Origin: Flavobacteriales bacterium
Lineage (GTDB): Bacteria > Bacteroidota > Bacteroidia > NS11-12g > UBA955
NCBI GenBank assembly: GCA_947496375.1
Contig: CANMCY010000012.1
Location: 1-64,000 of the forward strand
Reading direction: 5' to 3'
DNA length: 64,000 nt
A program made the translations under genes and the position numbers. Under the pieces are notes generated by a model, which saw only the letters and a list, made by a program, of their open reading frames with translations, did no database searches and was not told the origin of the DNA. Shown here piece after piece: positions 2,546-19,878 of this stretch; position 1 is the stretch's first letter; each line of letters begins with the position of its first letter.

Positions 2546-3031
2546 TCATTTTATTTTCAATAATATATAGTCTTTCCAAAATGCTTCCGCTTCTTGTTTT
2601 TCGTCATCAGACATAGCCGAATAAGGAAATGCAGGCGCATACATACCTGGAAAAATAGTAACTAGGCAGTAATCCCCATCCTTTAATTCAGCAACAACCG
2701 TAACAAATTGTGTTTTGGGCAAGGTGTGCAGTTCTATGTATGATACACTAAAACCATTTCTTGTTTCTGTTAGAACCTCAGCATTTGGATAATCCTTTCT
2801 CAGGCCCACACCATAAAATCCGGTAAAGGCGAGTTCCGGAAAATAATACTCATGTGCCTCTCTATAGTTGGACTGCTTAACAATACGAATAGGGACCATA
2901 GTCGAGAGGACCGAAAGAAGCGAATCTACATCCGGGAATACATCAAGATTAAATTTACTACCACTTTTCTCTGACGGCACAAAATGCACTTTCAGATGGG
3001 CAATAGCAGCTTCAGAAACTGAATAGAACAT
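2546..3031 (-). CDS. Hypothetical cytosolic protein
   Basis: I do not recognise this 161-residue protein. It has no signal peptide or membrane helix and has mixed alpha/beta content, with a hydrophobic strand region around residues 85-125 and an acidic helix near the C-terminus. Its ATG overlaps the stop of the upstream gene by one base (TAATG at 3029-3033), so the two are almost certainly translated together and may form a complex. The upstream protein ends in a membrane anchor, so this could be its soluble partner. Confidence 0.65.
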   Translation of the reverse strand: MFYSVSEAAIAHLKVHFVPSEKSGSKFNLDVFPDVDSLLSVLSTMVPIRIVKQSNYREAHEYYFPELAFTGFYGVGLRKDYPNAEVLTETRNGFSVSYIELHTLPKTQFVTVVAELKDGDYCLVTIFPGMYAPAFPYSAMSDDEKQEAEAFWKDYILLKIK

Positions 3032-4386
3032 TAATTTTTGGGATTTTTAAACAATTTTCGCTTAATTTTTTTAGTATTCTCCGGGAATAAATAGGCGAGT
3101 ACAGGTACACTTAAAAACAGAACAAGAATTACCAAGCTCGAATAGAATAAACAGGATGACCAGTTCACCCGAACCCTAACTTTCTCCAAAATATTGAGAA
3201 TATCATTAACTGACGACAAACCCGTTAGCAGCGAAACAAGTCCCAATAATGCCGCCTGTCGTTTCTCCTGATCTTCCTGTATGCTTGCCGCCAGTTTTCC
3301 CAAACGCTTTTCAAATTGTTCAATCTCGGTGCCTATACCCAGCGCATGGTGTATTTTTTTGTAAAATATATTGGGTAGAAAATTAAAAGAAATGTGTGAG
3401 AAATTATAGTTATTGACAAAAGCCTCAAAGTTTGACCTAATCTTTACCGGATTATCACTAAATACAGCATTGAATCTAAATAAATTATAGCGTAAAAATA
3501 AATTATAAATATAAATGGCAAAATAGACACGGTTATAGATATTAAAAGAATAAAATCCATTCTCTTTATATTGAAACACCTGTTTATTGCCTATAATGGT
3601 GAAAGAATCCAGTAAGGCAAGACCTGTGTAGTTATTAAATACCTTAATGCTATTTTGCATTAATTCTTCATAATAAATAAGAGAAGGCGCATTATAATCT
3701 TGCTCTTCCACGGTGCCAATTCTGGAACCTGTTCCAATTTCATATACCAGATAATCGCGGCTATACAGTTTCTCATCATCAGGTTCTACAGTATTAATAA
3801 CTGTATAAATTTTAAATTTAGAACCACTGTAATCATCGGCCTGCACATTGGCGCCTCTTAATGGGATATTACACAATACTTCCTTACTTATAAATTCATG
3901 AAAAACAAGGGGATGCCCGGAAAACATTAGTTTGGCATCAAAAGAACGTAACCCGAATATGAGATCACTCAGGTATTCAAATGTATGTTGTATTGGCTTG
4001 AAAGAGAGTGCAAAAATCCCTGTTCCATTATCAAATAAAAATAATTCTTGCCGGCTACAAATGGCCTCTACATGCCGAGCATTTTTAATGGAACCCAGAG
4101 TAATGACCATTGAAAATTCCTTTGCCCGCTGCAATCCATGCATTCTCTTCCCTTCCGACTTGCCTGTAAACATCAAAGATGAAAATTCGCTGTAGTAGGT
4201 ATCCCGATAATAAAGAACCGATTCATCCTGCTCATTTTGATAGTCAGAATGTGTTTCCGGAACTTTTTCAGAAAGTGGAATATCCATGTATCCAGCATTA
4301 ATGAGTGCTTTTTTTTGTTTATTATCAAAGGAAAAAACACCCGTTACTTTTATGAGGGCAGCATCTATGGTGGGTAATGGCTTCAT
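3031..4386 (-). CDS. Hypothetical protein with C-terminal membrane anchor
   Basis: This 451-residue protein is unknown to me. Residues 1-330 are soluble and contain many aromatic residues. Residues about 340-395 form a charged helix (IEQFEKRLGKLAASIQEDQ) followed by a hydrophobic stretch, and residues 410-435 are a clear membrane helix with a lysine-rich tail. A long soluble domain, a helical stalk and terminal hydrophobic helices recall CorA-like proteins, but no GMN motif is present, so I do not call it a transporter. It is divergent from the thioesterase gene, whose likely start at 4473 leaves 86 bases for promoters. It is coupled to the gene at 2546. Confidence 0.65.
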   Translation of the reverse strand: MKPLPTIDAALIKVTGVFSFDNKQKKALINAGYMDIPLSEKVPETHSDYQNEQDESVLYYRDTYYSEFSSLMFTGKSEGKRMHGLQRAKEFSMVITLGSIKNARHVEAICSRQELFLFDNGTGIFALSFKPIQHTFEYLSDLIFGLRSFDAKLMFSGHPLVFHEFISKEVLCNIPLRGANVQADDYSGSKFKIYTVINTVEPDDEKLYSRDYLVYEIGTGSRIGTVEEQDYNAPSLIYYEELMQNSIKVFNNYTGLALLDSFTIIGNKQVFQYKENGFYSFNIYNRVYFAIYIYNLFLRYNLFRFNAVFSDNPVKIRSNFEAFVNNYNFSHISFNFLPNIFYKKIHHALGIGTEIEQFEKRLGKLAASIQEDQEKRQAALLGLVSLLTGLSSVNDILNILEKVRVRVNWSSCLFYSSLVILVLFLSVPVLAYLFPENTKKIKRKLFKNPKN

Positions 4387-4445
4387 CTATGGCAAATATA
4401 TTAAACGCATCCCAATTGATACTATACTATTTCCCATTAATACAG

Positions 4446-4453
4446 TATGTTTG
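4446..4453 (+). promoter_or_regulatory. Candidate -7 box upstream of the thioesterase gene
   Basis: TATGTTTG matches the Bacteroidota -7 consensus TAnnTTTG exactly. It lies 19 bases before the ATG at 4473 and inside the longer open frame that starts at 4377, which argues for the later start. No convincing -33 TTG is seen at the usual spacing. Confidence 0.4.
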
Positions 4454-4472
4454 TCCATACTTTAATGTTGAA

Positions 4473-5018
4473 ATGAAAACCATTGCAGAATCTGAAACTA
4501 TTTATACTGAACTTATGATTCCGTCCTATGCCAATTTTGGCGGCAAGGTGCATGGCGGTATAATTTTATCTATCATGGATAAAGTAGCTTATGTATGCGC
4601 CAGCAAGCACAGCGGCAGTTATGTGGTAACCGTAGCGGTGGAAGGTGTTGAATTTTTGAGTCCTGTGGAGGTTGGTGACTTACTCACGATTAAGGCCTCC
4701 ATTAATTATGTGGGAAATACCACCATGATTGTGGGTATGCGCACAGAGTGCTTTAATCCGAGAACCAGCCATACCAGGCATACCAACAGCTGCTATTTTA
4801 CCATGGCTGCAAAAAATGACGATGGCACGCTGAAAGAAGTTCCCGGACTGATTATCTCAAACCATCAGCAATTGGTGCGCTTTTGCGAAGGCAAACTCAT
4901 TCGGGACTTGTCCAAAAAGAAACGTGAGGCATTAAAAAATAATTTTGCGGAATACAAAGTAGAGGAACTCAAAGAATTATGTTCTTTGGAAAAATGCAAT
5001 GTAGAATTCCTAAAATAG
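4473..5018 (+). CDS. Acyl-CoA thioesterase (hotdog fold)
   Basis: Likely hydrolyses acyl-CoA to free acid and CoA in the cytosol. The 181-residue product has the hotdog signature: NFGGKVHGGIILSIMDKVAY (residues about 20-40) with the HGG turn and the acidic residue of the central helix, followed by TVAVEGVEFLSPVEVGD and the GNTTMIVG strand. This layout fits the YciA/BFIT branch, which usually acts as a hexamer. The C-terminal 45 residues are a charged helical tail. The open frame runs back to 4377, but that would overlap the divergent gene and add an odd N-terminus; the ATG at 4473 behind a -7 box is better. Chain-length preference cannot be read. Confidence 0.82.
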   Translation: MKTIAESETIYTELMIPSYANFGGKVHGGIILSIMDKVAYVCASKHSGSYVVTVAVEGVEFLSPVEVGDLLTIKASINYVGNTTMIVGMRTECFNPRTSHTRHTNSCYFTMAAKNDDGTLKEVPGLIISNHQQLVRFCEGKLIRDLSKKKREALKNNFAEYKVEELKELCSLEKCNVEFLK

Positions 5019-8349: not shown

Positions 8350-10845
8350 ATGATTTCTTTTCCTAATACTAAAATGGAACCTTCTGATATCAATCCTCAA
8401 CTATTACAAGCAATAGCAGAACTCCCGGTTCACATATCTCAACCATTATACCGCATATACGATTCAAAACTGTATTTCAAAAAACTCCATCTGGTATCTG
8501 ACCTGCTGATAGGTTGCTTCAGACTCTATGGCCATGCTTTAATACAAATAGCACGCAAGGAAAATTCCATATCTGAATCACTTGAACTTTCCATTGAAAC
8601 ATTACTTTCAAAGGATAGCCATGGACTTTGGAATACTACCATTATAAAACTGCTACAAGAAATTGAAAAAGCAGAATCCATTTCGCTTTCCCCGGAGATT
8701 TTTACCCTTTTTGGCGTAACCCTGAAAAAGCGAAAACAGCCGGTAATCAAACAGTTTACCGTAAAAAACACTGTCATTGACAGCACGGGCAAAAAGCAAT
8801 TGATTGACACCACTAACACCCCTTTGGAATTATTAATTAATTTCAGAAATAAATATGTTGGCCATGGCACAGTGTACTCAGAAGAAGAAAGCCATAAGAT
8901 ATTTCTTGTATATGAAAATGTACTTCTCGAACTTATCAATTTATTGAATCAATGCAAAGATTTTCAGTTTTTGGATTCTGAAAACAAAATTACCCTTCAT
9001 GGGTACGATAAAATCTGTAGCGGAAAAATTGAATTTTCATACGATGGCAATAGATACCAATTCGAATCGGTTGAGCAGCTTAGTATAGAAGTTGGTGAAT
9101 ACCTCAACGAGTCAGATAGCGGCAACCTTGTATCGGAAGACAATACAGATAAAAACATCATCCAGACCTACCCATATGTTATTGCACATCCATATAAAAG
9201 GGCATTGGAAGAAACAGATGGTTATAAACGCCTGCATCTCCTGAAAGAGACTTTCCTAAATTACCTTAAATATGTTGGATTAATCACAGCCTCTGAGTAT
9301 TTCAACAGTGATTTAAAAATTGGAGAAATAAATCGTGCATTTAAAAATTACCTTTTTAGGCCACAATTCGGCCATTGGAATGCTTTTGTGCGCAGCGCCA
9401 TCAAGGCTTTGATTGAAAATAAACACCATTGGTTTGTTGCTGAATTACCTGAATATTATGATGAGATTGAAACCCGGCCTTACGCTAAAAATGGAATTAC
9501 GGACATAGGCAAATTGATTGAATTCAGAAACCATTATCTGGGACATGGGACCGTGCCGTCAGAAAAACAGTGCAAGCAGTTATGGGCAGACTATTTTCCG
9601 CTGTTGAAAGGATTGCTGCAGAAAATGGCATTTTGTAAAAACTACACGATTGTAAGCAGCGACAAAACCATTGCCTGGCGCCTGATGGGTGATGAAATTA
9701 CCCAGGTCAATTTGCGGCAAAAACTAAAATCAAATATAGCTATGCTCAATAACCACAATGAGGAACTTAGCATTGTGCCGTTTTTTATCTTACCCGGTGA
9801 GTATTTTATAAAAGAAGTTTCTGAAAGGGCAAAACTGATGGTGTATGAGCAAAATACAGGTAGCCGAATTGTATTTTTTAGTCCGGAAAGTGTGCATGGA
9901 GAAACCAACAATGAGAGGGTACTTGAGCAACTGAATTTGATGATTCGTGAAAAAGAAAAACAAGAACCCGTTGATATAAAAAATTTAAATGAATCAGCCT
10001 GGAAGGCACTGCTGAAAGAAAACAATGAAGCAACCCTTCAAAGTCTGCTAAACGAAAAGAAAGTTATTAAAGGGATTTATCAGGAAAGACAGGATGCCGA
10101 GATAGCGCTACGCTCCTGGATTGGTGCTCGGGCAGGGCTTTTCTTTTTATCGGCAGAAGCCGGCAGTGGCAAAACCAATCTTTTAGTAGAGATGAGCCGA
10201 CAATATGGGGAACGAGGATTTGACACGATATTACTTCGCGGCAATCGTTTTCGCACACCAGATATTTGGGAGGAGTTGTGTTATCGACTAAATTTAACTC
10301 CAGACAGCTCTTTTGAAGATGCTGGTTTTGTCAAGTATGAACAGGAAAATCCACTATTAATTTTGATAGATGGGGCAAATGAAAATTCCAATTCAAAGGC
10401 ATTGTTTGACTCGATTCTTACATTTCTTGAAAAATACAAAGGTGGGCATATTAAAATTGTGCTGAGCTGGCGCGTAAACACAAAGAGTGAACTACCAAAA
10501 GCAGATGACAAGTATGAATCCATCATATACAGCGATGCGAAAGAAGGCGACCGGGAAGAAAACATCATTGCCCGCTCCTGCTATTGGCTGAAACCGTTGA
10601 ATAAAGTAGAAGTAGAGGGTGCCTGGAATAAATATGTGAATGATAAACAAGACAAGGTTAGGCGAAAACCCAATTTCTCTTATGAAGAACTGACCTACCA
10701 TGACCGTTCATTGAGTGATCAGTTAGATAACCCATTACTGCTTCGCTTATTTCTGGAACTAAACAATGGTAAAGGCCTGCCCAAAAGCCGGGGAGGATTT
10801 ATTAGTATTTGGTCATTATATCACGAGAAACTAATCTCACAATAA
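8350..10845 (+). CDS. NACHT/STAND NTPase with tandem HEPN-like domains
   Basis: This 831-residue protein has two copies of a domain of about 150 residues (roughly 30-200 and 275-425). Each contains a helix with FRN[KH]Y[VL]GHGTV: R166/H172 in the first, R393/H399 in the second. The R-N-x4-H pattern matches the HEPN RNase motif. The ATPase follows: Walker A AEAGSGKT with K608, Walker B LLILIDGANE with D674, an IKIVLSWR sensor strand (R708) and the NPLLLRL turn near 795. NACHT-type STAND proteins use ATP to assemble after a sensor detects a trigger. Here the chain stops at residue 831, just where the winged helix and sensor normally follow. Those parts appear in the next genes, which start five bases later. 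I infer an effector/ATPase subunit, probably antiviral; the HEPN call is less sure than the NACHT call. Confidence 0.82.
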   Translation: MISFPNTKMEPSDINPQLLQAIAELPVHISQPLYRIYDSKLYFKKLHLVSDLLIGCFRLYGHALIQIARKENSISESLELSIETLLSKDSHGLWNTTIIKLLQEIEKAESISLSPEIFTLFGVTLKKRKQPVIKQFTVKNTVIDSTGKKQLIDTTNTPLELLINFRNKYVGHGTVYSEEESHKIFLVYENVLLELINLLNQCKDFQFLDSENKITLHGYDKICSGKIEFSYDGNRYQFESVEQLSIEVGEYLNESDSGNLVSEDNTDKNIIQTYPYVIAHPYKRALEETDGYKRLHLLKETFLNYLKYVGLITASEYFNSDLKIGEINRAFKNYLFRPQFGHWNAFVRSAIKALIENKHHWFVAELPEYYDEIETRPYAKNGITDIGKLIEFRNHYLGHGTVPSEKQCKQLWADYFPLLKGLLQKMAFCKNYTIVSSDKTIAWRLMGDEITQVNLRQKLKSNIAMLNNHNEELSIVPFFILPGEYFIKEVSERAKLMVYEQNTGSRIVFFSPESVHGETNNERVLEQLNLMIREKEKQEPVDIKNLNESAWKALLKENNEATLQSLLNEKKVIKGIYQERQDAEIALRSWIGARAGLFFLSAEAGSGKTNLLVEMSRQYGERGFDTILLRGNRFRTPDIWEELCYRLNLTPDSSFEDAGFVKYEQENPLLILIDGANENSNSKALFDSILTFLEKYKGGHIKIVLSWRVNTKSELPKADDKYESIIYSDAKEGDREENIIARSCYWLKPLNKVEVEGAWNKYVNDKQDKVRRKPNFSYEELTYHDRSLSDQLDNPLLLRLFLELNNGKGLPKSRGGFISIWSLYHEKLISQ

Positions 10846-10850
10846 TCGTT

Positions 10851-12521
10851 ATGACAGATAATCATTTGTTGATCTATCGCCTGGCCGGACTCATGTTAGA
10901 ACATGAGCAGCATATATTGCCTGTGGATTTGTTGTTCGACGATGACCAAATTGGAGATTTTGTGAAGAGCATTCAAATAGATTCGCCCTATCAGCAAATG
11001 TTAATAGAAGGTGTGTTGACTGAATCTGTAAAGGAAGAAAAACTTTTTGTAAGCTTTACGGTAGAGGGGTATTTTCATTATGTGTTGGGAATGGTCATGG
11101 AATCACAGTTTGCAAACCACAGCGCACAAGACATACATCATAAAGTTTCGTGTAATCAATTAAATGGGATAACTGAAGGGCTGAAACATTTTTTGATTAG
11201 GGAAACTGACAATCAGAAATTTGACACATTGTTATGGTTCGTGGACTTTGGAAAAAACTTCAAAAATGTAATTGTTGACTCACTTTCATATGCCTATTTA
11301 AAGATTGGTGACCGCTCACCCGTTGGGGGTACCATCGAACTGACCAAGGGTTTATTTGAAAACCCAACTGACAGTGATATAGAAATTATTGACAGTGTTT
11401 TGGATAGATTGGAAAAACTACAAAAAAACAGTGTTTCCAAGCAAATCATCCATGAAGTCTTGCACTATATAAAGACCGACAGCCCTCAAAAAGCCGGTTT
11501 GTTTGTAAAGGCAATTCAATACTTAAAATCGGATGAAAAAATAGAGAAACTTGATAGACTGACATCTTTGGATTTTGATAACGGTGATCCGGAAACTGTT
11601 AAATTATATCAGAACATTGGCTCTGAATGGAATACCCTGGGACAATACAGCAAAGCAATAGCGGCGTATAACAAAGCAATAGCGGCCGTAGATCCACAGA
11701 ACATCCGCCAAATTGAAATATCAGCAGAGATTTACAACAATCTTGGCAATGCCTTTAAATACAACGGGCAATTCGATGAAAGCCTTAGCCATTTTAATAA
11801 ATCTTTGGATATTTATATATCGCATTTTGGTGAAGGCCATGTAGCATTAGGTACTACTTACGGCAATCTGGCTCTTAATTACCAAGAACAAGATAATTTA
11901 GAAAAAGCTATGCATTATTATGAAAAAGCCATTATGCTCGAAGAACGGCTGCATGGGTATTATCATCCAAACATAGCCATTACCTATAACAATTTAGGGA
12001 CTTTATCGGTGGAACAATTAAATTTTACCATGGCGAAAGTATATTATGAAAAATCACTAAAAATATTCCTTAGCATTTTTGGTCCCATTCACCAATGGGT
12101 TGCAACGGCATACAATAATATTTCATTGATGCACATCAAAGAAAAGAATTTTAGTCTTGGCCTTGAATATGGTAATAAAGCTTTGATTATAATAGAGACA
12201 TTGTTTGGTACCAAACACCCTTGGTATGCAACAACTATCAGTAATATTGGTGGTATTTCTCTTGAATTGAGGGAATTTAATAAAGCACTTGTTAATTTTA
12301 CACAAGGGCTGGAAATCAAACTGGAATTGTACGGAGAAGACAACCTCAATATCGGATATTCTTACTACAACATTGGTAAATGCCATTATGAATTAAAAAA
12401 CTATCACCCTGCAAGATTACACTATCATAAAGCTTGGACAATATTCAAGAACGCATTGAGTGAAAATCACAGCATATCAAAAAAAACCCAAGATTATTTG
12501 ACAAAATTAAATGACCTCTAA
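10851..12521 (+). CDS. STAND partner 1: winged-helix-like module plus TPR array
   Basis: The product has 556 residues. Residues 1-80 hold the shared module (HEQHILPVDLLFDDD, SPYQQMLIEGVLTESV, SFTVEGYFHYVLG), which resembles the helix bundle and winged helix after a NACHT ATPase. Residues 85-250 are helical and weakly similar to partners 2 and 3. From about 255 there are kinesin-light-chain-type TPRs of 42 residues, recognisable by YNNLG and repeated H-P/H-x turns. TPR arrays in STAND proteins usually serve as the sensor. I chose the ATG at 10851 because it follows the ATPase stop by five bases and matches the starts of the other two partners; an upstream in-frame start at 10809 would overlap the ATPase gene. 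Its last 11 bases overlap partner 2. Confidence 0.82.
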   Translation: MTDNHLLIYRLAGLMLEHEQHILPVDLLFDDDQIGDFVKSIQIDSPYQQMLIEGVLTESVKEEKLFVSFTVEGYFHYVLGMVMESQFANHSAQDIHHKVSCNQLNGITEGLKHFLIRETDNQKFDTLLWFVDFGKNFKNVIVDSLSYAYLKIGDRSPVGGTIELTKGLFENPTDSDIEIIDSVLDRLEKLQKNSVSKQIIHEVLHYIKTDSPQKAGLFVKAIQYLKSDEKIEKLDRLTSLDFDNGDPETVKLYQNIGSEWNTLGQYSKAIAAYNKAIAAVDPQNIRQIEISAEIYNNLGNAFKYNGQFDESLSHFNKSLDIYISHFGEGHVALGTTYGNLALNYQEQDNLEKAMHYYEKAIMLEERLHGYYHPNIAITYNNLGTLSVEQLNFTMAKVYYEKSLKIFLSIFGPIHQWVATAYNNISLMHIKEKNFSLGLEYGNKALIIIETLFGTKHPWYATTISNIGGISLELREFNKALVNFTQGLEIKLELYGEDNLNIGYSYYNIGKCHYELKNYHPARLHYHKAWTIFKNALSENHSISKKTQDYLTKLNDL

Positions 12522-12756
12522 CCACCTCCTACTCTACCGCCTGGCAGAACTCATGCTTGAACATGAGCAGCATATATTGCCTGTGGATTTGTTATTCGAC
12601 GATGACAAAATTGGGGATTTTGTAAAGAGTATTCAGATCGATTCACCCTATCAGCAGATGTTAATAGAAGGTGTGTTGACTGAATCTGTAAAGGATGAAA
12701 AACTTTTTGTAAGCTTTACGGTAGAGGGGTATTTTCATTATGTATTGGGAGAGGTA
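12511..12756 (+). repeat. 246-bp near-identical 5' module, present three times
   Basis: The first 246 bases of partner 2 (12511-12756) and partner 3 (14954-15199) are nearly identical. The first 240 bases of partner 1 (10851-11090) are a more diverged copy. Similarity falls off sharply just after the codons for HYVLG. Such a sharp edge suggests recent duplication or gene conversion of the module, or strong selection to keep one docking surface while the rest varies. Confidence 0.85.
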
Positions 12757-14964
12757 ATTTACAATCGAACTGACGGATTGGGTGCTGAAGCCTTGAAGCA
12801 AATTGTTGAGGATAACAAGTTGAATGGTGCAAAGGAAGGGGTAGAGCAATGTTTGCTTAGGGATGTGCAACAGGATAACTTATTACGGTTAATGTGGCTA
12901 ATTGATTGTGAAGATGGTTTGACAGACTTATGTAGCATCCCATTGGCATATTCTTTCTTAAACATTAAAGAACCAGCAAAATCGGAAAAAGAACTTACCG
13001 AGGCTTATAATAATCAAATCAAAAGGACATTAATAAAATTATTGGAAGAACCAACTGACAATGATATTGAATCACTTAGTCAATGTATCAAACATTTAGA
13101 AGAAGCTCAAAAGACTAAAGTAGTAGCTTCGATTTATTGGCATATAAATGAAATGTTAGAGCCAATTAATTTGAAAAAATCAATAATACTCACCAAATCC
13201 ATTAAATATTTATCAGAGGTTGACCGCAAAATCAAACTTCAACGTATTACCGAATTCAAGTTAGAAGAAGAATCAGATTTATCGGCAATATTTTTTAATT
13301 TCATAGCGATACAATTTAACTTTATAAACGAATATGATAAAGCTATTGAGTACTTTGAAAAATCACTAGCAATTGAATTATTATTTTATGACGAGCAGCA
13401 TCCATCAATAGGATCAATCTACAATAATTTAGGATTAGTATGCATGGAAAAGGGCGACTATGACAAGGCGTTAGAATACCATGAAAAGTCGTTGGCGATT
13501 AGTTTAAAGGCACATGGAGATCAACACACTTCAACTGGAACGTCTTATAATAATTTGGGAAGTGTTTGGAGCGAAAAAGGGGACCATAATAAGGCAATTG
13601 AATACTTTGTAAAATCATTGAAAATAGCTTTAAAAGTAGAAGGAGAACAACATACTTCCACAGCGGTTGTATACAATAATATTGCAAAAGTATGGACAGA
13701 TCAATTGAACTTTGAGAAAGCAATTGAGTACATTGAAAAATCACTCATAATAAGATTAAAAGTACTCGGCGAACAACATCTATCAACCGGAGAATCACTA
13801 AACAATCTCGGATCCGTTTGGCAAAAAATGGGAGACTATGACAAGGCCATTGAATATTATAATAAATCATTGGAGATAGATATAAAAGTACTTGGTGAAA
13901 AACATATTTCTATAGGAATTTCATATAATAATTTAGGATGTGTATGGAGCGATAAAGGCGTCTACGAAAAAGCACTAGATTACCATTATAAATCACTAAA
14001 TATTAAATTATTATTTTATGACGAAAAGCATCCTTCAATAGGTATTTCTTACAATAATTTAGGGTTGGTCTGGCGCGAGTTAGGGGACTACAACAAAGCG
14101 ATTGAATGTTTTGAAAAGTCCTTGGCAATATATTTGACGGCGCAGGGAGAAATGCATCCTTTAACCAGCGAATCTTATTATAATTTAGGAAGTGTATGGA
14201 GACTTAAAGGCGACTTTGAAAGTTCAATTAAATATTATGAAAAATCCTTGGAGATAGACATAAAAGTCCATGGTTACCTCCATCCTATAACCAGCGAATC
14301 ATACAATAATTTAGGACTATTATGGTGCGAACAGGGGAACTACGACAAAGCGATTGAATATTATGAGAAGTCATTGGAGATTTACTTGAAGGTTAATGGT
14401 GCTCAACACCTATACACTGGGATATCCTGCAATAATTTAGGTTCAGCATGGAAAGAGAAAGGCGAATATGACAAAGCAATTGAATTCTATGAAAAGTCTT
14501 TGGCGATTGACCTGAAAGTTCATGGAGAACAACACCCTTCAACTGGAATATCTTTTAATAATTTGGGTTCCGTATGGGAGGAGAAAGGCGTATATGACAA
14601 AGCAATTGAATACTACGAAAAGTCTTTGGCGATTAACTTGAAAGTTCATGGAGAACAACACCCTTCAACTGGAACATCTTTTAACAATTTGGGTTCCGTA
14701 TGGGAGGAGAAAGGCGTATATGACAAAGCAATTGAACACTATGAAAAGTCTTTGGAGATTAACTTGAAAGTTCATGGAGAACAACATACTTCAACTGGAA
14801 TAACTTATAACAATTTAGGCAATGCGTACAGGGACATAAAAAATAAATTTAATGCAAGAGAAATGTATGAGAAAGCACATGCCATTTTTTTAAGATCATA
14901 TGGTGAAGCACATGAGCACACAAAGCTTATTACAGAAAAACTAGAAAAACTCAATGACCTATAA
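12511..14964 (+). CDS. STAND partner 2: winged-helix-like module plus long TPR array
   Basis: This 817-residue protein has the shared module in residues 1-82, a helical linker to about 260, then 13 consecutive TPRs of 42 residues (13291-14929). A repeat reads YNNLGSVWEEKGVYDKAIEYYEKSL followed by G-E-Q-H-x-S-T-G. The repeats are of the kinesin-light-chain type and would build a long superhelix for binding a protein or peptide. Repeats 9-11 are almost identical in DNA, so the array is changing length recently. The start overlaps the end of partner 1 in ATGACCTCTAA, and the end overlaps partner 3 in ATGACCTATAA, so all four genes of the operon are likely translated together. Confidence 0.83.
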   Translation: MTSNHLLLYRLAELMLEHEQHILPVDLLFDDDKIGDFVKSIQIDSPYQQMLIEGVLTESVKDEKLFVSFTVEGYFHYVLGEVIYNRTDGLGAEALKQIVEDNKLNGAKEGVEQCLLRDVQQDNLLRLMWLIDCEDGLTDLCSIPLAYSFLNIKEPAKSEKELTEAYNNQIKRTLIKLLEEPTDNDIESLSQCIKHLEEAQKTKVVASIYWHINEMLEPINLKKSIILTKSIKYLSEVDRKIKLQRITEFKLEEESDLSAIFFNFIAIQFNFINEYDKAIEYFEKSLAIELLFYDEQHPSIGSIYNNLGLVCMEKGDYDKALEYHEKSLAISLKAHGDQHTSTGTSYNNLGSVWSEKGDHNKAIEYFVKSLKIALKVEGEQHTSTAVVYNNIAKVWTDQLNFEKAIEYIEKSLIIRLKVLGEQHLSTGESLNNLGSVWQKMGDYDKAIEYYNKSLEIDIKVLGEKHISIGISYNNLGCVWSDKGVYEKALDYHYKSLNIKLLFYDEKHPSIGISYNNLGLVWRELGDYNKAIECFEKSLAIYLTAQGEMHPLTSESYYNLGSVWRLKGDFESSIKYYEKSLEIDIKVHGYLHPITSESYNNLGLLWCEQGNYDKAIEYYEKSLEIYLKVNGAQHLYTGISCNNLGSAWKEKGEYDKAIEFYEKSLAIDLKVHGEQHPSTGISFNNLGSVWEEKGVYDKAIEYYEKSLAINLKVHGEQHPSTGTSFNNLGSVWEEKGVYDKAIEHYEKSLEINLKVHGEQHTSTGITYNNLGNAYRDIKNKFNAREMYEKAHAIFLRSYGEAHEHTKLITEKLEKLNDL
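14428..14805 (+). repeat. Three 126-bp tandem repeats inside the TPR array
   Basis: Three consecutive units of 126 bases (42 codons) are nearly the same, the last two differing by only a few bases. They encode repeats 9-11 of partner 2. The other repeats of the array are more diverged, so these units arose by recent unequal exchange or slippage. Confidence 0.85.
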
Positions 14965-16525
14965 CCACCTCCTACTCTACCGCCTGGCAGAACTCATGCT
15001 TGAACATGAGCAGCATATATTGCCTGTGGATTTGTTATTCGACGATGACAAAATTGGTGATTTTGTTAAGAGTATTCAGATCGATTCTCCCTATCAGCAG
15101 ATGTTATTAGAAGGTGTGTTGACTGAATCGGTAAAGGATGAAAAACTTTTTGTAAGCTTTACGGTAGAGGGGTATTTTCATTATGTATTAGGAGAGGTAT
15201 TACATGATGATGAGAGATTGAATGACCCCAAAACTCTAACAGTTCTACTAGAGTCAAATAGATTAACCGGACTGAAGGAAGGCATTGAACAGTGCATTCT
15301 ATTTGATATCCGGAATCACAATTATTCTCGGCTATTTGGTATGATTGATTTGGGTGGTATTGTGTTGGAATGTTGTGAATTTCCTCTGGCTTTTGCATTT
15401 AATTTTCAATCAAATTCCGGAAAGAATATTGACGATTTAAATTTGTTAAGGGAACAACAAATTGATTTTATTTTAACGCTATTATTGGCAGATTTTACAG
15501 AGAATGATCTGCTTGTCCTAAAAAGTAGTCTATTAAAATTATACAATTTACAGCAGATTAAGGTAATGAAGTCCATATATCGTAAGGTTTTTCAGTATCT
15601 TAAACCGAAAGATAAGTTATCTTTGGAGTTGTATATCAAATGTATACAATACTTAGAAAAGTCAGATGTTAGTTTGGCACTTAACATTATTGATAATTCT
15701 TATAAGGATATCATTGCTGATGACAATATTGAATTTTACTTAAAAATTGTATTTCAATATAATCGGTTAGGAGACTATAGTAAATCTTTACATTATTTAT
15801 TGCATTGCGAAAGTGTAGTTAATGAAGGCATTTCAGTTGATTATAAAGTAGAGTCTAAATTGCATTCTGCTCTTGCTACTGTATATTTTAATTTGGAAGA
15901 CTATGATAAGTCTCTTGGATTTTGGGATTCAAGTATTCGAACTTTATTAAACATTTCTGATAAAACTCCGATGGAACTGGGTTCAAGGTATAATAACAAG
16001 GCCACTACGTTGATGGTTTTAAGGAGATATGATGATGCTGCAAAATATTTTAGTTTGGCATTTGAACTACAATCTAAGAATTATGGATTATCACATGTGA
16101 GTATTACTAATTATTATACGAATATTGCAGTTTTGTATAGTAGAAAAAGAGATTTTCAAATGGCAAGAACGATGTATGAAAAATCACTTGAACTGAGGAA
16201 AAGGATATTCGGTGAAAATCACGAGCAAGTTGCAAATAATTATAATGGTTTAGGAGTCACTTTGGGAAAGATGGGAGATATGAAAGGTGCAATGGGGTTT
16301 TTAATGAAAGCGTTGGAGATTCAATTGGTTATTTTTGGTGAAATTCACCCAGAGCCGGCACTTACATACAAAAATATTGGTATGGGTTATTACTTTAATA
16401 ATTTTAGAGAAGATGCCTTGAATTTTCTGCAAATAGCCCATGGAATTTATACAAAATTGTACACCGAGGATCATCGGGCAGTCAAAGAAATTGAGAGAAC
16501 CTTATATAATATTTTAAGAAATTAA
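14954..16525 (+). CDS. STAND partner 3: winged-helix-like module plus divergent TPRs
   Basis: The 523-residue product starts with the shared module almost unchanged from partner 2. It then has a linker with the common pattern LKEGIEQC...RLFGMID and, from about residue 270, degenerate TPRs (YDKSLGFWDSSI, YYTNIAVLYSRK, YEKSLELRKRIFGENHEQ, YKNIGMGYYFNN). It is shorter than partner 2 and lacks near-identical repeats, so it probably senses something else or uses another surface. It closes the operon: the C-terminus ILRN differs from the LNDL end of partners 1 and 2, and no further copy follows. Confidence 0.8.
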   Translation: MTYNHLLLYRLAELMLEHEQHILPVDLLFDDDKIGDFVKSIQIDSPYQQMLLEGVLTESVKDEKLFVSFTVEGYFHYVLGEVLHDDERLNDPKTLTVLLESNRLTGLKEGIEQCILFDIRNHNYSRLFGMIDLGGIVLECCEFPLAFAFNFQSNSGKNIDDLNLLREQQIDFILTLLLADFTENDLLVLKSSLLKLYNLQQIKVMKSIYRKVFQYLKPKDKLSLELYIKCIQYLEKSDVSLALNIIDNSYKDIIADDNIEFYLKIVFQYNRLGDYSKSLHYLLHCESVVNEGISVDYKVESKLHSALATVYFNLEDYDKSLGFWDSSIRTLLNISDKTPMELGSRYNNKATTLMVLRRYDDAAKYFSLAFELQSKNYGLSHVSITNYYTNIAVLYSRKRDFQMARTMYEKSLELRKRIFGENHEQVANNYNGLGVTLGKMGDMKGAMGFLMKALEIQLVIFGEIHPEPALTYKNIGMGYYFNNFREDALNFLQIAHGIYTKLYTEDHRAVKEIERTLYNILRN

Positions 16526-16939: not shown

Positions 16940-17752
16940 TCATAATACAAAGAGCTGATTATTAGGACAGATTTGAATCATCAATATGTCACCAAGATTA
17001 TAATGATTTTGTAAATATTCAACGGCTTGAATAAAATGTAACCTTACAGTACGATTGTTGTTTGCTGTTCGATTGATTGGTGATTGAAATTGCGTTCCAT
17101 CAGGAAAAATCAGCGTAACTATTTCACCTATTTGACCAAAACAATGATCTACCCCGACCCCAGGATTCATGAAGCTTTGATTATAGTAGGTCTCACCGAG
17201 TTTCCAATTGAAAGCACCACAGATAGAATTACAATTTTTAGTATTTGGAGAAATTGTTTGATTGATTAAATTATCAATTTCTATTTCATCCTCAAAATCC
17301 TCTAATGTAGTTTTTGGAATGCCGTGCGTATTGTTCCAATCAGGTTTAAAAGAATAAATGAGACTATCCTCTAAGCCAGCGGGCAAATTCAAATTGTACC
17401 CACCCCACTGAAGTGCTGGAATATCGGCAAGGATAAATATCTTGATAGATTGATTTTTTTCAAGCAAATCAATTATCGATCTTTTAATCCTATTATTAGT
17501 ACTATTTCCATACCCGAGTTTATATTGTGACATCCTAGTTTCAATACCCTTGGTAGTCTTTCCTATATATTTAACTGATGATTCTAAACGGTCGGAAATA
17601 GACACAAATGCATAAAGCACATTTCTGGAACCCATATTTTTGGTATTATACATTTGAGAGTTTATTGAGATTTCTATGGTATCGCTGTTAATCAATTCAC
17701 ATTCTCCTATCTCAATAAAATTGAGTTCAATTAAATCTTGAATATCTGCCAT
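16940..17752 (-). CDS. GIY-YIG nuclease domain protein
   Basis: The 270-residue product carries a GIY-YIG-like domain at residues 44-145: a VLYAFVS strand in place of GIY, KYIGKTTKGIETRMSQY (61-77) with the YIG and the catalytic Arg at 73, GLEDSLI with Glu128, and DWN with Asn140. These match the catalytic set of the family, which cuts DNA with a metal ion. Residues 170-270 form a strand-rich C-terminal domain that may bind DNA. Restriction enzymes and homing or repair nucleases share this fold. No methyltransferase lies nearby, so a classical restriction-modification pair is not supported. It sits between decayed genes in AT-rich DNA, as expected for transferred DNA. Confidence 0.7.
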   Translation of the reverse strand: MADIQDLIELNFIEIGECELINSDTIEISINSQMYNTKNMGSRNVLYAFVSISDRLESSVKYIGKTTKGIETRMSQYKLGYGNSTNNRIKRSIIDLLEKNQSIKIFILADIPALQWGGYNLNLPAGLEDSLIYSFKPDWNNTHGIPKTTLEDFEDEIEIDNLINQTISPNTKNCNSICGAFNWKLGETYYNQSFMNPGVGVDHCFGQIGEIVTLIFPDGTQFQSPINRTANNNRTVRLHFIQAVEYLQNHYNLGDILMIQICPNNQLFVL

Positions 17753-19798: not shown

Positions 19799-19804
19799 GT
19801 TGAG

Positions 19805-19878
19805 TCGGGATGACAAGATTCGAACTTGCGACCCCTTGCACCCCATGCAAGTGCGCTACCGGGCTGCGCTACATCCCG
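19805..19878 (-). tRNA. tRNA-Pro (anticodon GGG)
   Basis: A 74-base cloverleaf on the reverse strand. The acceptor stem is CGGGATG with CATCCCG, and the discriminator base is A. The D arm is GCGC...GCGC, the anticodon stem CTTGC with GCAAG, and the T arm contains GTTCGAATC. The seven-base loop ATGGGGT places GGG at positions 34-36, so it reads the proline codons CCC and CCU. The C at position 1 and the TAGCGCAG...GGTAGCGC core agree with bacterial proline tRNAs. CCA is not encoded. Confidence 0.92.

Follow-up and report, generated by a model that had tools for sequence, protein, structure and literature searches.

STAND cores consist of an NBD, a helical domain (HD) and a winged-helix lid (WHD), which are followed by an arm and a TPR sensor (PMC6468293). 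In PH0952, the WHD spans 77 aa, and a loose stretch of 6 aa connects it with the HD (PMC6468293). Known STAND and Avs proteins, such as PH0952, MalT and Avs2, are single chains. The family that we describe here keeps their order of P-loop core, helical domain, WHD-position segment, arm and TPR, but it seems to be divided before the WHD position, and its sensor side comes in 1-4 exchangeable copies. Several sensors acting via one shared partner are familiar from NAIP/NLRC4 and from plant sensor-helper (NRC) pairs, where sensor and helper are each a complete NLR. A shared partner for several sensors is likewise proposed here, but the locus under study would split the NLR core itself between two proteins.

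Three other systems offer partial parallels. In Rhs loci, exchange of C-terminal tips combines a constant core with exchangeable C-termini, core and tip histories are decoupled, and homologous recombination in the constant part leaves downstream fragments behind (PMC2935791); each of these features appears to have a counterpart in the present family, although Rhs proteins are unrelated to it. Displaced Rhs tips are dissociated and silent (PMC2935791), whereas the cassettes of this family are nearly all intact genes with their own starts; we met no silent displaced cassettes of the Rhs type, and short trailing fragments alone are decayed. STAND antigen sensors diversified by DGRs also place a diversified sensor part in STAND conflict systems, but there reverse-transcriptase hypermutation acts on C-lectin folds (PMC10907252), while whole repeat sensors appear to recombine here. 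Finally, HEPN-STAND-TPR fusions combine the same three elements in single chains (PMC3710099); HEPN membership of the protein analyzed here rests on a motif and predicted helices.

Array layout in the window and in related loci

We analyzed a 64,000-nucleotide stretch of a Flavobacteriales genome (the window; positions 1 to 64,000 of contig CANMCY010000012.1). Between 8350 and 16525 it carries four plus-strand genes, namely an ATPase gene and then three partners, p1, p2 and p3 (Table 1). The sequence-only reading of this region had described a nearly identical start in p2 and p3 with p1 close to it, an abrupt loss of similarity behind it, and a conserved 11-base overlap at the gene junctions, and our measurements bear out all three. 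Over the first 246 bases, 239 positions are identical between p2 and p3, 217 between p1 and p2, and 215 between p1 and p3. The next 246 bases of p2 and p3 match at only 105 positions (ungapped). In 30-base bins, p2/p3 identity runs 29, 30, 30, 28, 29, 28, 30 and 29, then 10, 12 and 16; upstream of the shared ATG it is 13-17 per 30 bases. Position 15199 is the end of the module in p3, and the gene itself continues to 16525. The overlap is a property of the p1/p2 and p2/p3 junctions, unlike the ATPase/p1 junction, where a 5-base gap takes its place. The module occurs three times in the whole genome, always in p1-p3.

Table 1 Features of the window and of related loci (window positions unless a locus is named)
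Feature	Position	Strand	Remarks
Small neighbor gene	2558-2962		
CorA-like gene	3055-4377	minus	
4HBT thioesterase	4377-5018		
ATPase gene	8350-10845	+	831 aa; two N-terminal helical (HEPN-like) domains, then NBD and helical domain of STAND core
First R-N-x4-H motif, RNKYVGH	8845-8865	+	residues 166-172; HEPN-like
Second R-N-x4-H motif, RNHYLGH	9526-9546	+	residues 393-399; HEPN-like
P-loop, GSGKT	10162-10176	+	ATPase core
Walker B, LILIDG	10357-10374	+	ATPase core
p1 (partner 1)	10851-12521	+	TPR repeats
Constant module, copy 1	10851-11096	+	82 codons; probable winged-helix lid
Arm and TPR sensor of p1	11097-12521	+	type A; TPR repeats from residue ~263
11-base overlap ATGACCTCTAA	12511-12521	+	p2 start and p1 stop
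p2 (partner 2)	12511-14964	+	TPR repeats
Constant module, copy 2	12511-12756	+	239/246 identical to copy 3
Arm and long TPR sensor of p2	12757-14964	+	near type D
11-base overlap ATGACCTATAA	14954-14964	+	p3 start and p2 stop
p3 (partner 3)	14954-16525	+	TPR repeats
Constant module, copy 3	14954-15199	+	start of p3
Arm and TPR sensor of p3	15200-16525	+	
270-aa ORF	16940-17752	minus	directly downstream of array; weak GIY-YIG match (E 0.006)
tRNA-Pro(ggg)	19804-19878		
Fused relative	L022:15599-19813		1404 aa
Fused relative	L040:3731-7249	minus	congener G002
Fused relative	ORF of L058	minus	
Kelch partner	L019:1929-3950		same module; Kelch propeller behind TPR-like part
Kelch partner	L020:4674-7220		same module; Kelch propeller behind TPR-like part
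Kelch partner	L026:12055-14601		same module; Kelch propeller behind TPR-like part

One scan of genome contigs returned 16 contigs with the module, all titled as Bacteroidota MAGs; module identity is 73-94% in 15 of them and distant in one. Wherever the locus is complete, we found one P-loop ATPase gene and then 1-4 tandem genes that each join a module to a repeat sensor. The ATPase gene lies directly upstream of the array wherever the contig covers that place, and the lone exception to this plan is the distant L034, in which no ATPase was recognized. ATPase orthologues are present in 12 related loci (59-79% identical to the window ATPase). The array genes begin with ATG and their reading frames are intact, and 16 of 20 internal junctions in related arrays overlap by exactly 11 bases (two overlap by 4 and two are gapped). 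At such a junction the cassette start, ATGACCnnTAA, does double duty: it opens its own gene, and read in a second frame it encodes the N-D-L-stop or similar tail of the preceding gene.

The arrays of L026, L030 and L031 are followed on their 3' side by decayed starts of modules, which retain 80-85% identity to modules, and weaker decayed fragments are visible behind those of L021 and L029. The contigs of L024 and L028 end 33 and 62 bases past a module, which is suggestive of the effect that repeated modules are expected to have in assemblies. L032 (5383-10570) resembles a decaying locus: its ATPase is disrupted into two ORFs, and it has a truncated first module. In L022 (6785-6792) and L028 (9994-10001), the ATPase and first partner are in frame with one TAG and two codons between them, so that altering this one stop codon would join the two. 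Translation past the ATPase stop into p1 was rejected as a general feature, as the frames agree only in these two loci and disagree in nine, including the window.

Beyond these loci the family is sparse. Scans of viral contigs with the ATPase and module gave no match, nor did plasmid and phage records searched with the ATPase. None of six congeners searched has a close module, and one of them, G002, has a fused form (L040) instead of a split array. The module is seldom met outside the order: 395 genomes sampled from the class yielded one distant fused protein, and a fused query against 396 genomes drawn from the phylum matched its own genome alone.

The ATPase and the probable place of the module in the STAND core

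The ATPase has the Walker A and Walker B motifs of a STAND NTPase, and both GSGKT and LILIDG are invariant among its orthologues. Its core matched Avs2 models (E 8.7e-12 and 7e-10), but the score is far below the whole-protein cut-off of the NCBIfam model for Avs2 (AVAST type 2; 37.5 vs 1000 bits), and the P-loop core alone matches. The predicted ATPase model has low quality in its core (pLDDT < 50), and Foldseek with the whole model gave AAA+ ORC/Cdc6 as best matches, followed by ZAR1 and Avs4, all weak. When the sequences of solved structures were searched with profiles of the ATPase and of the fused core, they returned weak SRP-type and unrelated matches only, and for the full fused protein all matches were to TPR structures.

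The N-terminal 430 residues of the ATPase form two homologous, mainly helical domains (25% identity, E 2e-11; predicted helices with pLDDT about 80-90). HEPN RNases share an Rx4-6H motif with a polar residue after the R (PMC3710099), and RNKYVGH and RNHYLGH both conform to it within predicted helical domains. The first motif is conserved as RNKYVGH, RNRYVGH or RNKFVGH in all ATPases covering it; in the second, R, N and H are invariant in 12/12 ATPases, and this motif is present in the fused relatives as well. Pfam HEPN profiles gave no match to the window protein at E <= 1. The motif and predicted helices make a tandem HEPN-like RNase the probable effector.

What the module is became clearer from three single-gene relatives, in which ATPase, module and TPR are fused in that order. 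The ATPase runs from about residue 260 to 825, the module follows ~13 aa later, and the repeats come after it. Profiles tile these proteins without overlap (ATPase columns 1-293, E 5e-56; module columns 305-378, 96%, E 2e-9). In the fused relatives, NBD-HD, the presumed WHD-position segment, arm and repeats agree in order and length with a STAND protein, and in the window the same series is divided over two genes, the ATPase gene stopping before the segment homologous to the module. By this sequence comparison, the division falls at the place of the HD/WHD boundary known from PH0952. The module is therefore likely, on sequence grounds, to be the winged-helix lid of the STAND core. An AF2 model of it shows helices and then a beta hairpin (pLDDT 89).

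The sequence-only reading had called the module a docking domain. Its homology to the segment behind the ATPase core of the fused relatives identifies this "docking domain" as the C-terminal continuation of the STAND switch; that part of the description is now refined, while docking in trans is what the split arrangement would imply. It could instead be a separate adaptor or docking domain, with an ATPase that is complete by itself and TPR proteins as accessory subunits. Foldseek returned no significant match for the module model, which agrees with such a reading, but a homologous segment of about WHD length lies directly behind the ATPase core in all three fused relatives, and we consider a separate adaptor improbable. 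In L022 (4326-19813), a split ATPase with three sensors and a fused gene 4 kb downstream share one contig; the C-terminal part of this fused protein has weak Rhs-core and DUF4347 matches.

Histories of modules and sensors

Synonymous sites revealed a sharp contrast within the same gene pairs. For p2/p3, pS is 0.10 and dS 0.11 in the module, compared to a pS of 0.70 and a dS of 2.0 beyond it; pS rises from 0.38 to 0.74 for p1/p2 and from 0.42 to 0.71 for p1/p3. When only codons for conserved degenerate amino acids are counted, p2 and p3 differ at 5 of 75 within the module and at 64 of 125 past its end (Fisher p 1e-11), and the same codon test gave p = 2e-5 for p1/p2 and p = 0.005 for p1/p3. L026_1/2 and L021_2/3 show the same contrast as the window pairs. 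Divergence of module and remainder, which the sequence-only reading had singled out as the telling comparison, is therefore unequal, and because synonymous divergence jumps at the module end, protein-level selection alone does not explain the likeness of the modules. Modules of different loci, in turn, are synonymously saturated (median pS 0.81), so the module DNA itself is not constrained; this rules out an RNA element or codon use as the cause.

These data bear on plain tandem duplication of whole genes, in which sensors diverged fast and purifying selection held the module protein, with neither exchange nor conversion. Strong conservation of the module protein everywhere (mean column identity 87%) is what such a history predicts. 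However, it is contradicted by the synonymous contrast and the between-locus saturation unless synonymous rates in sensors are several-fold higher than in modules, and by two further results given below, i.e., the opposite discordance in L022_1/L027_2 and the clustering of type A sensors across loci without their modules. We regard it as extremely unlikely.

Sensor types recur across loci at other array positions and with different modules. The type A sensor is at position 1 in the window, and its orthologues L022_3 and L027_3 (44-47% aa) are both at array position 3; across loci, type A sensors resemble one another more than they resemble their array neighbors, which does not hold for their modules. 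Type F sensors occupy positions 1 and 2, and type C sensors, which have Kelch repeats and thus extend the repertoire of related arrays beyond TPR, occupy positions 3, 1 and 3. For the p3 sensor, a comparison among related loci found no close orthologue. Modules instead follow the locus (12 label changes on the module tree vs 18.8 in shuffles; 0/200 as low). Grouping of modules by sensor type was rejected for types A (AU p 2e-4), D (6e-6) and B (0.003), and marginally for G (AU p 0.04), whereas types C, E and F gave no rejection. Between loci, Kelch partners share 68-71% identity; their modules are more divergent than other modules and mostly stay with their own sensor, which indicates that exchange is not universal.

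L022_1 and L027_2, the plainest individual example of exchange, present the reverse of the discordance in the window, where near-identical modules sit on old, diverged sensors. Their sensors share 79% aa identity with a dS of 0.42, while their modules are saturated (Fisher p 1.5e-6), indicating that a sensor moved without its module. High similarity in this pair extends up to the next ATG (58/60) and drops in the following module. Breakpoints vary, lying near codon 82 in both the window and L026, near codon 135 in L021_2/3, and within codons 82-106 for L022_1/L027_2. At the level of sequence, these results demonstrate that module and sensor histories are separate, in both directions, and together with the module trees they show that the two parts have recombined. 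The proposal of the sequence-only reading, cassette duplication with swapping of sensor parts or else gene conversion, is supported by this discordance and by the clustering of modules by locus.

Gene conversion in place would have homogenized neighboring modules within old, fairly fixed arrays, with little swapping of sensors. Locus-wise clustering of modules fits this, as do the variable tract ends and the p1/p2 module, which is identical at 88/90 of its last 90 bases and at just 19/30 of its first 30. Sensor types are nonetheless found at different positions and with different neighbors across loci, and type F sensors were recently common to two loci without their modules, for which sensors must have moved. 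We thus consider conversion in place somewhat unlikely as the whole account. The sequences are compatible both with duplication plus exchange and with in-place conversion, and they do require some movement of sensors between loci.

Genomic setting and a candidate split switch

Similarity of the window to congeners G002, G003, G005 and G006 stops near the tRNA-Pro gene, at about 19.5-19.8 kb, which marks the array side as variable sequence. A 4HBT thioesterase is found near arrays in the window, L021, L024 and L030, and near the fused gene of L040. The CorA-like gene and the small neighbor recur in the window, L021, L022 (in part) and L040; in L024 and L030 the thioesterase lacks both, and in congeners G006 and G001 it occurs without the CorA-like gene or a STAND gene. 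This pattern of neighbors suggests that the array sits in a variable, defense-like region.

A defense role is our reading of these loci, and STAND proteins with TPR sensors such as MalT also act as regulators (PMC6468293), so the locus might encode a MalT-like regulatory STAND with several inducers. A domain search of the window genes found no DNA-binding output domain, though, and the HEPN-like N-terminus, the similarity to Avs2, the sporadic occurrence and the variable neighborhood fit conflict systems better. A regulatory role is therefore doubtful in our judgment.

The locus probably encodes a STAND switch of the NLR/Avs-like kind that is split and has multiple interchangeable lid-sensor subunits, which recombine at the module. 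The product of the ATPase gene would act as effector and motor, its HEPN-like domains preceding the NBD and helical domain. At rest, the WHD would clamp ADP, and here it would be supplied by each partner's own copy of the module, such that every sensor subunit would place its lid on the common ATPase and hold it closed. Binding of a trigger to the sensor (probably a phage component) would displace the lid, and the ATPase could then take ATP, oligomerize and turn on the HEPN effector. One motor could in this way answer several triggers. The module protein would be constant since a common ATPase has to accommodate all partners, and because the module DNA is repeated, it could be a crossover site for in-frame gain, loss and swap of sensors. 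Module-module recombination (unequal crossover, insertion or conversion) would add, delete, shuffle or replace sensors while frame and docking are kept, the first 11 bases of the module also giving the stop of the preceding gene.

In the open-access literature, we found no account of a STAND switch that is split ahead of the WHD position and is served by several sensor subunits; this is weak evidence, most subscription papers lying outside that literature. What would be new, judging by the comparisons above, is the split, multi-sensor STAND/Avs-like switch, and the array dynamics resemble Rhs tip exchange.

Known immune STAND switches tie lid, arm and sensor covalently to the motor. The wider claim, on which we are evenly divided, is that the core of a bacterial immune switch has been parted here into a shared effector-motor and interchangeable lid-sensors in a recombining array, with the docking lid as the recombination substrate. 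If true, one killer enzyme would have an expandable repertoire of triggers, and it would become testable whether a lid in trans suffices for autoinhibition and coupling, and how one effector serves several triggers. It would likewise become possible to test how bacterial immune receptors acquire new specificities, here by exchange of entire sensors at a constant module in place of point mutation.
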